A stretch of DNA of 64,000 nt from Winogradskyella vincentii (GTDB taxonomy: Bacteria; Bacteroidota; Bacteroidia; Flavobacteriales; Flavobacteriaceae): contig NZ_JAIUJS010000005.1 in the NCBI RefSeq assembly GCF_020166345.1, positions 1 through 64,000 of the forward strand. Reading direction: 5' to 3'. Under the pieces are notes generated by a model. That model worked only from the letters and a program-made list of their open reading frames with translations. It did not search any database and had not been told where the DNA came from. The position numbers were made by a program, and so were the translations under genes. The stretch's first letter is position 1, and every line of letters begins with the position of its first letter. Of this stretch, positions 16,145 to 31,103 are shown piece by piece.

Positions 16145-16720
16145 ATGCAACTTGTTTTTGCCACCAATAATCCTAACAAAATAAAGGAAGTACAAGCCTT
16201 GGTACCGCAGCATATAAAACTATTAAGTTTATCTGATATTTTATGTATTGAGGACATCCCAGAAACCACAGGAACCATTGAAGGCAATGCCAAACAAAAG
16301 GCAGACCATATTAAAAACCATTACGGTTATGATTGTTTTGCAGACGACACAGGTTTGGAAGTTGAAGCCCTAAATGGTGAACCTGGCGTAGATACGGCAC
16401 ACTATGCTGGTCCACAGCGTGATGCCAATGATAATATGGACAAGCTACTGGATAATCTCAAGGACAAACCCAACAGAAATGCGCAGTTTAAAACGGTGAT
16501 TGCCCTGCATCTCAATGGCAACTACCATGAGTTTACTGGCATTTGCAAAGGCGAGATTACTTTGAAAAAACAAGGTGATCAAGGCTTTGGTTACGACCCA
16601 GTATTTAGGCCTCAAGGTTATGAGCAAACTTTTGCAGAGATTTCATTGGCTGAGAAGAATAAAATTGGCCATAGAGGCTTGGCTGTAAAACAACTCATAA
16701 ATTTTCTCCAAAATACGTAG
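16145..16720 (+). CDS. rdgB: RdgB/HAM1 family non-canonical purine NTP pyrophosphatase
   Basis: House-cleaning enzyme (191 aa) that hydrolyses dITP, ITP and XTP to monophosphates, preventing their incorporation into DNA and RNA. Visible motifs are LVFATNNPNKIKEVQ (3-17), DCFADDTGLEVEALNGEPGV (~64-83) with the substrate-binding residues and general base Asp, FGYDPVF (~147-153) and the C-terminal KNKIGHRGLAVKQL. Length is standard. It is monocistronic. Confidence 0.95.
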   Translation: MQLVFATNNPNKIKEVQALVPQHIKLLSLSDILCIEDIPETTGTIEGNAKQKADHIKNHYGYDCFADDTGLEVEALNGEPGVDTAHYAGPQRDANDNMDKLLDNLKDKPNRNAQFKTVIALHLNGNYHEFTGICKGEITLKKQGDQGFGYDPVFRPQGYEQTFAEISLAEKNKIGHRGLAVKQLINFLQNT

Positions 16721-16731: not shown

Positions 16732-16803
16732 GAAATCCTACTGAGAAAAACCTAACTTCGCTTATCATCCGATAAACTCAATTGAAACTGAACTTATCTA
16801 ACC

Positions 16804-16818
16804 GTTGGCTTTAATGCT
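16804..16818 (+). repeat. Left inverted repeat of the CPBP cassette
   Basis: GTTGGCTTTAATGCT, 16 bases before the CPBP start codon. Its inverse complement recurs at 17581-17595 with 14 of 15 bases identical, so the pair brackets the gene. Confidence 0.7.
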
Positions 16819-16833
16819 AAAAAAATAATTGCG

Positions 16834-17610
16834 ATGCCATTAAAAAAAATAAATCTCTCACCATATTTAAGCATTTTTGGAATAACAGTATTATTTCTAT
16901 TCCTGTCTGGTATACTCATGTTCTTGACATATGATTTAGAAGAAAATAATATAAAACATAGTATCCAAATAATTTCTCTCGGAGTATACGTTGCTATAAC
17001 CTATTATGTCAGTAAATTTTATTTTAAGAAAATCAATTTAAATCCACCGAAGTTAATTGGAATAAACTTTTCTTTATTTATGGCTATACTAATTGGGATT
17101 TTCTTTGCCTTGATTATACAATTACCATATCGAATTTACGCCATAATCAGAACAGGGGATTTTGTATACATTTTTTTGGCTTTTAATATTGAGAATTTTA
17201 TTAAGGCTCTAGGCGCTGGAATATTTGAAGAAATTACATTTAGAGGTACATTATTAAATTTCTTTAACCAAAAGAATAAAAAATATTTAGGGTTAATTAT
17301 TTCTTCTCTGATTTTCGGCTTAATCCATATTGGAAATTCATTCATAGGTGTAGAAATATCATTAATATACATTATTTATATTATCTTTTATGGTTTCTCA
17401 TTTGGTCTAATTTATTTAAATTTTGGACTTATTGCTTCAATTTCAGCTCATGTTGTCGGTAACTTTCTTATTGGTGGATTTATAAAACCTAACATATCTG
17501 GTTTTTATTATAATGTAGCAATAATTGTAATTTTATGTGTTTGGTTGTTTTTCAGAGATAAGAGAAAACAAGGCAGTAAAAGCACTAAAGCCAACAACGT
17601 GTATAATTAA
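16834..17610 (+). CDS. CPBP family intramembrane metalloprotease
   Basis: Integral membrane protein (258 aa) with about seven hydrophobic segments. The CPBP (CAAX protease and bacteriocin-processing) motifs are EEITFR (Glu132, Glu133, Arg137), FGLIH (His165) and HVVGN (His206, Asn210), the expected metal and catalytic residues. Substrates of bacterial members are mostly unknown; some protect against bacteriocins or process peptides. Base composition is more AT-rich than the neighbours. The last nine residues (STKANNVYN) are encoded by the right inverted repeat and adjacent element, so the C-terminus is probably a by-product of the repeat. It is alone between rdgB and a VOC gene. Confidence 0.88.
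   Translation: MPLKKINLSPYLSIFGITVLFLFLSGILMFLTYDLEENNIKHSIQIISLGVYVAITYYVSKFYFKKINLNPPKLIGINFSLFMAILIGIFFALIIQLPYRIYAIIRTGDFVYIFLAFNIENFIKALGAGIFEEITFRGTLLNFFNQKNKKYLGLIISSLIFGLIHIGNSFIGVEISLIYIIYIIFYGFSFGLIYLNFGLIASISAHVVGNFLIGGFIKPNISGFYYNVAIIVILCVWLFFRDKRKQGSKSTKANNVYN
17581..17595 (-). repeat. Right inverted repeat of the CPBP cassette
   Basis: AGCACTAAAGCCAAC, the inverse complement of the copy at 16804-16818 with one mismatch. It lies inside the 3' end of the CPBP reading frame. Confidence 0.7.
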
Positions 17611-17710
17611 TTGCTCTGGCAAGTGCTTATTTGGAAAATTCCTTCGGAATTTTCTCGCGTAAGTTTTTGTTTACTAAATTAGTTGCTAAAACACGCAACT
17701 AACCATACAC
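17596..17710 (+). repeat. Hairpin-rich non-coding element downstream of the CPBP gene
   Basis: This stretch has a 9-bp stem GAAAATTCC/GGAATTTTC with a 3-base loop (17634-17654) and an 8-bp stem TTAGTTGC/GCAACTAA (17679-17702). Its two outer edges are imperfect inverted copies: CGTGTATAAT near 17598 and ACCATACAC near 17702-17710. It has no coding capacity. The form suggests a miniature mobile or recombination element or a family of intergenic repeats; I recall similar blocks following accessory genes in other Flavobacteriaceae, but cannot verify that here. Confidence 0.55.
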
Positions 17711-17760
17711 AAGACCGATAAGCGTCACTCTAAAATTGTACTATAAATAAACTTATAAAA

Positions 17761-18191: not shown

Positions 18192-18210
18192 CGGCATTAT
18201 TGAGCGAAAG

Positions 18211-18283
18211 GTCCTAAATGGTTTAGGACAGGTGTTATAAGAAGTTTAGGTTAAAGTATGTCGGTTCCCTTCTTATGTAACAC
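18211..18283 (+). promoter_or_regulatory. Structured 5' leader of the DEAD-box helicase mRNA
   Basis: Two hairpins follow each other. The first is a perfect 8-bp stem GTCCTAAA/TTTAGGAC with a TGG loop (18211-18229). The second pairs GTGTTATAAGAAG (18232-18244) with its complement at 18269-18283, interrupted only by a 2-nt bulge, around a 24-nt loop. There is no T run, so these are not obvious terminators. A long structured leader before an RNA helicase gene fits cold-shock or autoregulatory control, which is an inference. Confidence 0.55.
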
Positions 18284-18315
18284 TACATAATATAATCGAT
18301 TATACAACTAAACGA

Positions 18316-28901: not shown

Positions 28902-31103
28902 TTAATTTGCTACTTCGCTAATAAATTTAATACGATATAAACGGAGCTCTTCATCTTCATAATCACCATCAAATTCTTCAACAGCATCTGAGATTTTATC
29001 GCTTTCAGATTCCATAAAGTACTCGTGAATTTCTTCTTGTTGATCTTCATCCAAAATCTCATCAATCCAATAACTTATATTGAGTTTTGTGCCAGAATAC
29101 ACTATAGATTCCATTTCCTTAATAAAATCTGGCATCTCCATACCCTTTGCAGATGCAATATCATCTAAACGCAATTTCCTATCCACATTTTGAATAATGT
29201 AAAGTTTTAAGGCAGAATTTGAACCTGTGGATTTAACAACCATATCATCAGGTCTTACTATCTCATTTTCTTCAACATAATCTGCTATTAAAGCCACAAA
29301 GTCTCTACCATATTTTTTGGCCTTGCTCTCACCTACACCATGTACATTATTCAATTCTTCAATCGTAATAGGATACTTTAATGCCATATCCTCCAAAGAA
29401 GGATCTTGAAAAATAACAAATGGTGGTACACCTAAACGTTTTGCATTTCGCTTACGCAAGTCTTTTAGCATGGTCATCAGTTTTTCATCTGCTGAAACGC
29501 CACTACTCTTTGCATTAGTTATTATGCCGTCATTAGATTCTTCGTCATATACATGATCTTCTGCCATCATAAACGAAACTGGTTTCGCAATGAACATCTT
29601 TCCTTCTTCGCTTAGTCTTAAAACACCGTAGGTTTCAATATCTTTCTTTAAATAACCTGCAACCAGAACTTGACGTATTAACGCCATCCAAAAACGCGGT
29701 TCTTTATCCTTACCAATTCCAAAAAATGGTTGAGTATCTGTTTTATGTGAAGAAATTAACGCATTAGATTTACCGACTATGACTTGTACTAAATCCTTAG
29801 ACTTATATTTCTCATTAGTACTATTTACGGTTTCTAATAAGATTTTAACCTCATTTTTTGATTCTACCTGTTTTTTAGGGTTTCTCACATTATCATCCAT
29901 GTCTCCACCTTCACCAGTCTCAGTATCAAACTCCTCACCAAAATAATGTAAAATAAACTTACGCCTAGATATGGATGTTTCTGCAAAAGCGACAACTTCC
30001 TGTAATAATGCATGCCCAATTTCTTGTTCGGCAACAGGCTTACCAGACATAAATTTCTCGAGCTTCTCAATATCCTTGTAGGCATAGAATGCCAAGCAAT
30101 GACCTTCACCTCCATCACGACCAGCTCTACCAGTTTCTTGATAATAACTCTCTATACTTTTAGGAATATCATGATGAATCACAAATCTCACATCTGGTTT
30201 GTCAATCCCCATTCCAAAAGCAATGGTTGCCACTACAACATCAGCATCTTCCATGAGAAACATATCCTGATGCTTTACACGAGTCTTGGCATCTAATCCT
30301 GCATGATATGGGACAGCTTTAACGCCATTTACTTGTAAAACTTGTGCTAACTCTTCAACACGCTTTCTGCTTAAACAATAAACGATACCAGATTTACCTT
30401 CATTTTGTTTTACAAAACGAATAATATCTGCATCTACATTTTTTGTTTTAGGTCTTACTTCATAGTATAAATTAGGTCTATTAAAAGATGCTTTAAATGT
30501 TACCGCATCTGTCATTCCTAAACTCTTCAGAATATCCTCCTGAACCTTTGGTGTGGCAGTTGCAGTTAACCCAACTATTGGAATATTATCTCCAATACGC
30601 TTAAGTATATGTCTTAAATTGCGGTATTCAGGTCTAAAATCATGTCCCCATTCACTTATACAGTGAGCTTCATCAACTGCCATAAATGAAACTTGAACGG
30701 ATCTAAGAAAATCTACATATTCCTCTTTTGTTAATGACTCTGGTGCTACGTAAAGTAGCTTTGTAATACCATTAACTATATCATCTTTTACACGCCTAAC
30801 TTCTGTTTTGTTCAATGAAGAATTCAATACATGTGCTACTCCTTCATTTTCAGAAACAGCTCTTATAGCATCAACTTGATTTTTCATTAATGCAATAAGT
30901 GGAGACACGACAATTGCTGTGCCATCTTTTATAAGTGCTGGTAATTGATAACATAAAGATTTACCTCCACCTGTGGGCATTATAACAAAGGTATTGTTAC
31001 CTTCTATCACATTTTTAATTACCTCTTCTTGAAGACCCTTAAACCCAGAAAAACCAAAGTATTTTTTTAGCGCGGAGTGTAAGTCAATTTCTGCAATACT
31101 CAT
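28902..31103 (-). CDS. recQ: ATP-dependent DNA helicase RecQ
   Basis: 3'-5' DNA helicase of 733 residues acting in recombination and repair. Motifs: MPTGGGKS (42-49), DEAH (144-147) followed by the aromatic-rich loop CISEWGHDFRPEY, GLTATATPKV, FGMGIDKPDVRF and QETGRAGRDG. Winged-helix (~410-520) and HRDC (~535-615) domains follow, with an extra C-terminal ~110 residues. The zinc site of E. coli RecQ has lost its cysteines: the equivalent stretch reads SRRKFILHYFGEEFDTETG with no Cys. It is monocistronic, divergent from kpsF. Confidence 0.95.
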   Translation of the reverse strand: MSIAEIDLHSALKKYFGFSGFKGLQEEVIKNVIEGNNTFVIMPTGGGKSLCYQLPALIKDGTAIVVSPLIALMKNQVDAIRAVSENEGVAHVLNSSLNKTEVRRVKDDIVNGITKLLYVAPESLTKEEYVDFLRSVQVSFMAVDEAHCISEWGHDFRPEYRNLRHILKRIGDNIPIVGLTATATPKVQEDILKSLGMTDAVTFKASFNRPNLYYEVRPKTKNVDADIIRFVKQNEGKSGIVYCLSRKRVEELAQVLQVNGVKAVPYHAGLDAKTRVKHQDMFLMEDADVVVATIAFGMGIDKPDVRFVIHHDIPKSIESYYQETGRAGRDGGEGHCLAFYAYKDIEKLEKFMSGKPVAEQEIGHALLQEVVAFAETSISRRKFILHYFGEEFDTETGEGGDMDDNVRNPKKQVESKNEVKILLETVNSTNEKYKSKDLVQVIVGKSNALISSHKTDTQPFFGIGKDKEPRFWMALIRQVLVAGYLKKDIETYGVLRLSEEGKMFIAKPVSFMMAEDHVYDEESNDGIITNAKSSGVSADEKLMTMLKDLRKRNAKRLGVPPFVIFQDPSLEDMALKYPITIEELNNVHGVGESKAKKYGRDFVALIADYVEENEIVRPDDMVVKSTGSNSALKLYIIQNVDRKLRLDDIASAKGMEMPDFIKEMESIVYSGTKLNISYWIDEILDEDQQEEIHEYFMESESDKISDAVEEFDGDYEDEELRLYRIKFISEVAN

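Follow-up and report, generated by a model that had tools for sequence, protein, structure and literature searches.

Sedentary chromosomal integrons of the Vibrio type, in which an IntI integrase and an attI site accompany arrays of attC-bearing cassettes, are the closest described counterparts of the locus studied here. In classical integron sites, extrahelical bases mark the recombining strand, and the secondary sites of integrons show a G-A/T-T preference. Xer proteins, for their part, resolve replicons at dif and are not known to run cassette arrays. According to the respective papers, classical attC sites are used as bottom strands (PMC2727003), integrons also have secondary sites (PMC2426708), and the IntI-specific additional domain serves as a marker of the family (PMC2426708; PMC9668308). 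PMC4792948 further describes integration of the CTXphi type by host XerCD, where a folded single strand without extrahelical bases is handled by enzymes without an I2 domain. As for the phylum, two reviews list Bacteroidota among integron-bearing phyla (PMC8618304; PMC9668308), and the IntegronFinder 2.0 paper states that only In0 elements had been found in Bacteroidetes before, to which it adds one complete integron, in Salinibacter ruber (PMC9024848).

Here, we analyzed a stretch of 64,000 nucleotides from Winogradskyella vincentii (the window), in which a gene for a CPBP/Rce1-like membrane protease very probably constitutes one mobile cassette of a system that resembles integrons but has a recombinase other than IntI and marks its strand in a different way (table 1). 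The initial annotation had described this gene as lying within an inverted repeat, with the right arm inside the reading frame, two hairpins in the block that follows and no transposase inside, and each of these descriptions is borne out: the CPBP gene is the sole ORF of at least 80 aa inside the flagged unit, and the folding of the block after the right arm beats that of shuffled sequences (z −2.7, with 2 of 200 shuffles equally good). The arms had also been taken for the boundaries of the unit, which comparison with other copies contradicts, the unit extending about 122 bp past the right arm. By its sequence, the left crossover probably falls between G16804 and T16805 and the right one after G17717. 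Taken alone, the inverted pair is only modestly unusual, as 0.17 matches are expected in a window scan allowing up to two mismatches, two or more occur in 1 of 100 shuffles, and a repeat search returned 21 inverted pairs in the same 4-kb stretch. We hold the feature to be real because the block has homologues elsewhere in its own genome and, by DNA similarity search, in 36 of the 37 genus genomes, its own included.

Table 1. The CPBP cassette and its insertion site, in coordinates of the window
Feature	Position	Strand	Remarks
rdgB/Ham1-like gene, left flank	16145-16720	+	Pfam PF01725; DNA match in 57 of 60 genus genomes
Left half of presumed target	16793-16803		CTTATCTAACC; palindrome together with GATAAG at 17717-17722
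R' half of attC-like site	16804-16818	+	GTTGGCTTTAATGCT; 14 of 15 bases complementary to 17581-17595
Integrated cassette, 913 bp	16805-17717	+	Ends inferred from comparison with other cassettes and the empty site
CPBP/Rce1-like membrane protease gene (cargo)	16834-17610	+	ORF; Pfam PF02517, E 1.1e-15; C-terminus STKANNVYN
R'' half	17581-17595	+	Inverse complement of GTTGGCTTTAATGCT with one mismatch; within the 3' end of the CPBP frame
attC-like site as integrated, about 137 bp	17581-17717	+	From R'' to the G of the right crossover; profile match 1.4e-29, to a profile that had been seeded with this very copy
L'' box	17599-17614	+	GTGTATAATTAATTGC; pairs with 17695-17710 over 16 positions, no bulge, wobbles at L6, L7 and L11
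Hairpin in variable inner part	17634-17654	+	Fold prediction
Second hairpin	17679-17702	+	TTAGTTGC / GCAACTAA; centroid fold; overlaps L'
L' box	17695-17710	+	GCAACTAACCATACAC; pairs with L'' at 17599-17614
Right half of presumed target	17717-17722		GATAAG; unbroken counterpart in G036

To judge from the cassettes compared, the inverted repeat is a pair of halves, R' and R'', of one attC-like recombination site. The halves stand apart because the cassette is integrated, and since they lie at opposite cassette ends, own halves would meet only in the excised circle. For each cassette, the opening bases (R') were set against those that precede its own site (R''), read as inverse complement, with the physically preceding site as control. 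Over positions 3–13 of 110 cassettes, with near-copies kept in, R' is identical to its own R'' at a rate of 0.783, against 0.421 for the physically adjacent R'' and 0.394 for shuffled partners (largest of 1,000 shuffles, 0.443); the own half is the better match in 95 of the 110 cassettes, equal in 6 and worse in 9. A Vibrio array was adopted as the yardstick for classical attC sites because a bulge-free finder, applied to ten loci of the phylum that surround a true IntI gene, returned at most one site per locus and strand. In this array, the same own-half matching is seen (56 cassettes, own identity 0.89–1.00 over positions 0–8). The sites of the genus thus resemble those of Vibrio in having AAC/GTT R''/R' boxes complementary within their own cassette, a spacer, L''/L' boxes, and a variable inner part. 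They differ in that the match between their R boxes extends to about position 13 and is interrupted by a fixed mismatch at position 10. This is the single mismatch of the CPBP arms; in 96 of the 110 cassettes, R' has A there and the inverse complement of R'' has G. The 15-mer, initially regarded as a shared repeat, is not one: the arms are cassette-specific, most cassettes having a matched pair of their own, and it is the hairpin block that recurs, so that further copies of the 15-mer are the wrong thing to look for.

The recurrence of the block is extensive. A probe covering 17570–17715 found six places in the genome of W. vincentii, itself included, on four contigs (C55, C44, C8, and C64), and a second probe found further copies, also on contig C10. 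The block was surveyed in 60 relatives, comprising the 37 genomes of the genus and 23 genomes from other families of the order; none of these 23 yielded it at the same DNA similarity. It was scored at least 10 times in 23 of the 37 genus genomes, with about 14 candidates scored per genome, and in one of them (G011) it recurs across most of a 60-kb stretch. Contigs C64 and C8 (L009 and L008) carry gene arrays in which most genes have such a block behind them. Further genes enclosed by similar sites, which the cassette reading of the initial annotation had called for, are thus present in these arrays. Long runs of DUF6090-like genes (MIKFFRKIR...) stand there as successive cassettes, and the two contigs end in identical sequence, the assembly being broken there at a repeat. 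Ten cassette proteins were drawn; among the seven compared with Pfam, a single one exceeded the cut-off, as DUF6090. Searching with an iterated profile, we obtained 140 site rows from 16 sequences (the genus loci fetched, with adjoining stretches joined, plus the window); 127 rows were anchored at both ends and the 13 without an anchor were dropped. Within each of the 16 sequences, all site rows lie on one strand, which corresponds to arrays running head-to-tail in one direction, as in Vibrio integrons. A forward ORF of at least 60 aa is present in 96 of 109 cassettes and absent from 13, counts that use the first anchoring of the right crossover, later moved in 20 of the 127 sites. Phage records contained no match to the block. 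Three further observations concern the surroundings of such sites: a sub-threshold match to the Rfam DUF805b motif near a cassette start (L002, 1661–1693; 29.6 bits, gathering threshold 35.6), an interval of the G034 array, around position 30253 of the joined L082 and L083, with an ORF that resembles by eye an IS3-type transposase, and block-like sites at 73–76% identity on two plasmids.

A tyrosine recombinase, 355–377 aa long in the examples read, adjoins the arrays. Its catalytic columns R, K, H-x-x-R, H, and Y are invariant in alignments of 18 and 17 sequences. Six IntI proteins, taken from the other classes of this phylum, have a stretch of about 50 aa that is absent from all 11 recombinases aligned, of which eight are array-linked (L010 presumably among them); the IntI-specific additional (I2) domain around patch III is missing from them. 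In a quick tree of 117 rows, computed without bootstrap after dropping the 7 of 80 named loci that had no usable ORF, 12 IntI rows and the ungrouped L232 share one branch (SH-aLRT 99) with no array-linked row, which places the array-linked recombinases, as far as their sequences tell, outside the IntI branch. The recombinase of W. vincentii itself sits at the end of contig C61, with an apparent cassette start on its outward side; as the arrays lie on other contigs (C64 and C8), its linkage to them can only be presumed. It has matches in 32 of the 37 genus genomes (E 1e-30). With the same query and threshold, the block occurs without a recombinase in five genomes (G007, G021, G023, G035, and G036), among which G035 has 14 scored block copies, and one genome (G013) has the recombinase without the block. 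Two layouts are seen, the recombinase being either divergent from the array (the L010-like type) or in the same direction (L085 and L086 vs. L075, L078, and L079); unlike in Vibrio integrons, it points in many loci the same way as the cassettes.

The recombinase further differs from IntI by an N-terminal region of its own, about 85 aa long, for which the six array-linked proteins scanned gave no Pfam match over the cut-off. Predicted models reached a mean pLDDT of 84.3 and a pTM of 0.55 for the whole protein, and 83.5 and 0.70 for the N-terminal region. The catalytic part of the model matches the structures of XerA and of the integron integrase IntI4, the best PDB sequence match for L061 being 4a8e, an archaeal Xer, and the best Foldseek match for the L155 model being XerA (5hxy). 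The likeness to archaeal Xer and to XerC/XerD thus concerns catalytic fold and residues, whereas the Bacteroidia recombinase is tied to cassette arrays and the structure matches, which span the model from about residue 100 on, leave out the N-terminal region. For the latter, VIA-align placed XPB rows on top (Z 6.3–6.7, 54–57 residues, rmsd 1.8–2.4), tied with eIF1/aIF1 (Z 6.0–6.1); the HARP domain of SMARCAL1 followed at Z 4.2, and the best Foldseek match had E 0.07. A resemblance to the XPB/HARP fold is a weak lead from these models.

Relatives of the recombinase are present in 147 of 295 genomes of the class (E 1e-45), and the block is recognized as DNA in only 9 of the 295. We used a detector that relies on AAC/GTT, own-half matching and L-box pairing, with no other sequence motif. 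In 20 recombinase loci from 11 other families, it found 46 cassette signatures 3' of the gene on the same strand (112 kb), against 3 in the 160 kb upstream, again on its strand, and 5 + 5 on the opposite strand; scoring top-strand instead of bottom-strand wobbles gave 41 downstream signatures. Fifteen of the 20 loci were positive, and among the five negatives, four had less than 2.7 kb downstream and the fifth had a block match by DNA. These regions were hand-picked from a ranked list for the presence of the N-terminal region and for room downstream, and at least three qualifying regions (in G402, G524, and G565) were omitted before any was read. A similar detector applied to 45 of the 80 named loci gave 63 forward and 14 reverse signatures, against 3 in shuffled sequence. 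Sites 3' of the recombinase occur in Winogradskyella ursingii, Seonamhaeicola, Algibacter, Algoriphagus, Rufibacter, Flavobacterium aciduliphilum, Aquiflexum, and others, and to this extent an integron-like system appears to be found widely in Bacteroidia. Directly after the recombinase stop, five related loci carry a palindrome, ATAAYGTGGATATA...TATATCCARTTG^TTG, presumed to be an attI-like site. A recombinase and an attI-like site thus adjoin the array at one end, as in Vibrio integrons, with the attI-like sequence clear in only these 5 of 18 junctions inspected.

These data bear on the possibility that the arrays belong to classical integrons whose IntI is encoded elsewhere in the genome or has since been lost, and that the neighboring recombinase is a bystander. 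The sites are indeed of the same kind as in Vibrio, with AAC/GTT boxes, L boxes and own-half matching, and a true IntI over the NCBIfam integron integrase cut-off of 265 bits occurs commonly in the phylum (84 of 296 genomes). However, only 1 of 295 genomes of the class has one, none was found in the genome of W. vincentii, whose recombinase scores 197.8 bits, cassette signatures lie 3' of a non-IntI recombinase in most of the other-family loci, and extrahelical bases, on which IntI relies, are few in these sites. We accordingly regard this explanation as improbable, in favor of an integron-like system served by its own recombinase.

The insertion site of the CPBP cassette, between rdgB and the genes for a glyoxalase and a DEAD-box helicase, can be compared with its counterparts in relatives. 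The presumed target is a palindrome, CTTATC-TAACC-GATAAG, which is unbroken in G036 (L098) and uninterrupted, with a diverged left half, in G021 (L118), while in G073 (L094), rdgB is followed straight by the helicase leader, with neither the CPBP nor the glyoxalase gene in between. The CPBP gene is present in a single one of 68 genus genomes (E 1e-20), to be set against the rdgB matches of table 1. The empty sites anticipated in relatives thus exist, the CPBP gene being missing and the target uninterrupted there, and no target duplication is visible by comparison with them. An insertion of this kind, at G^AT and away from any array, is similar to the use of secondary sites by integrons. The same neighborhood shows other changes. 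In G025 (L122, C7:269000-277000), another gene and a partial rdgB duplication occupy the place of the CPBP cassette; this insertion starts with GTTGTAAAC and, when checked as a sister cassette, showed no recognizable attC end. In G060 (L105, 2680–2820), the rdgB-side flank is followed by a sequence like the presumed attI (GTGGATATA...CATATCCA...GTTGTGC), which is perhaps another cassette. Independently, positions 18199–18315 of the window form a conserved leader before the helicase gene, with similar sequences near rdgB in 10 aligned relatives, among which the identity of the downstream gene was checked in L094 alone. A GTGTTA...TAACAC pairing is suggested by eye, the consensus fold is weak, with double changes in 3 of its 16 pairs and a covariation term of −0.14, and Rfam gave no match in this stretch.

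The initial annotation had offered two origins for the unit, and if its gene cassette of a recombination system has stood up, its mini-transposon has not, the arms being the R' and R'' halves of one site. A mini-transposon or MITE-like element that captured the CPBP gene between terminal inverted repeats would account for an inverted repeat around a gene without a transposase. It is nevertheless very unlikely, as the arms vary between cassettes yet match within each, the recurring block extends beyond the right arm, and the copies form head-to-tail arrays near a recombinase gene. In particular, a transposon with constant terminal repeats and target duplication is contradicted by the cassette-specific arms and by the lack of a visible duplication.

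The sites also carry an asymmetry between strands. L boxes were aligned by Watson–Crick pairs only, and 6 of the 127 sites had no scorable one. In the remaining 121, the 16 pairs of the box comprise 1,580 Watson–Crick pairs, 324 G-T pairs on the bottom strand (each an A-C on the top strand), 6 G-T pairs on the top strand, and 26 others. The wobbles are concentrated at L6, L7, and L11, and the other positions covary, L2 for instance being GC in 72 cases, AT in 32, TA in 9, and CG in 6. Own R boxes show 137 bottom-strand against 17 top-strand G-T pairs, mostly at position 10, along with 192 other mismatches. In 123 of 127 integrated forms and 110 of 111 circle forms, the bottom strand is predicted to fold better than the top strand, with mean energies of −27.0 against −22.4 kcal/mol in the circle forms; such folding suggests that the Bacteroidia sites are used as bottom strands. 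With a common aligner, the left arms of the 59 Vibrio sites contain 176 extra bases in total, and these sites show 5 bottom-strand and 1 top-strand G-T pairs along with 64 other mismatches, whereas the 127 genus sites have only 7 + 14 extra bases (21 over both arms of the folded bottom strand), 319 bottom-strand and 6 top-strand G-T pairs, and 80 other mismatches. Because the wobbles make the bottom strand fold better, fixed G-T wobbles could mark this strand instead of extrahelical bases. In other families, the bias is weaker: among sites found through Watson–Crick pairs in the 80 named loci, the 81 forward ones, chance hits included, have 126 bottom-strand against 28 top-strand G-T pairs, and the 32 reverse ones, mostly background, have 27 against 29. 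The word "wobble" was not found in the literature matching attC, bottom strand, integron integrase, and extrahelical bases.

Hairpins and single-strand bias are features of IS91-like and IS200/IS605-like elements, and it could be asked whether rolling-circle or similar single-strand transposition moved these genes, all the more so as a plasmid of Tenacibaculum finnmarkense (CP116296.1, L235) carries a block-like site beside an IS91-family transposase with a tyrosine recombinase. We consider this hardly probable, given that the gene before the arrays in the 20-locus set is a tyrosine recombinase and that own-half matching is the integron pattern. Least probable of all, the repeats might be transcription terminators or other RNA elements, as strong hairpins 3' of genes would allow, but folding favors the bottom strand, whereas the mRNA of the cassette genes has the sequence of the top strand, R' is located at the gene's opposite end and finds its match in the circle form, and a comparison of the block in four loci with Rfam gave no family (E 1).

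We thus retain the integron-like reading of the CPBP cassette. Own-half matching, arrays, linkage of recombinase and arrays, an uninterrupted target in a relative, a missing domain, and wobble asymmetry are all legible in the sequences, and that the system works like an integron is well supported, even if, by their defining domain, it is not a member of the IntI integrons. From this, we infer a circular intermediate and recombination of a single strand. A cassette would be a short unit, usually with a forward gene, ending in an attC-like hairpin site; in the free circle, R' would adjoin R'' and, together with L' and L'', let the bottom strand fold into a long stem. The tyrosine recombinase encoded beside the attI-like site would presumably be the enzyme that performs the reaction and joins the folded site to attI, or alternatively to another attC-like site or a secondary G-A-T target, the CPBP cassette being the secondary-target case. 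The choice of strand could be set by the G-T wobbles, which favor the bottom-strand fold and so may mark the strand in place of extrahelical bases. With CTXphi and XerCD, this scheme, known here from sequence, shares a folded single strand and a recombinase without I2, and it has few extrahelical bases where CTXphi has none; there, however, a phage genome is integrated by host Xer proteins, whereas here, cassettes have a recombinase of their own. No such system appeared in the titles and abstract openings found by our literature search, which did not reach preprints and most subscription papers, and an earlier description may exist.

Surveys identify an integron from the domain specific to IntI and with models of attC, and a cassette system without the IntI domain would escape a search for integrases, in a class where relatives of its recombinase occur in about half of the sampled genomes. 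More speculatively, and at somewhat less than even odds, Bacteroidia may hold a second solution to cassette recombination, in which single-strand hairpin cassettes are moved by a Xer-like enzyme that never had or has lost I2, and strand identity is written as G-T wobbles perhaps read by the N-terminal domain, whose weak fold matches include the XPB damage-recognition domain and HARP, both readers of DNA structure; this could represent a pre-IntI stage or an independent origin. PMC4792948 asks how I2 could have been selected in a world without attC sites, and attC sites in one without I2. Cassettes with folded sites, few extrahelical bases, and a recombinase without I2 would make this question of the origin of I2 and attC testable, and the linked difference of both hairpin sites and recombinase from those of classical integrons bears on the evolution of integrons.
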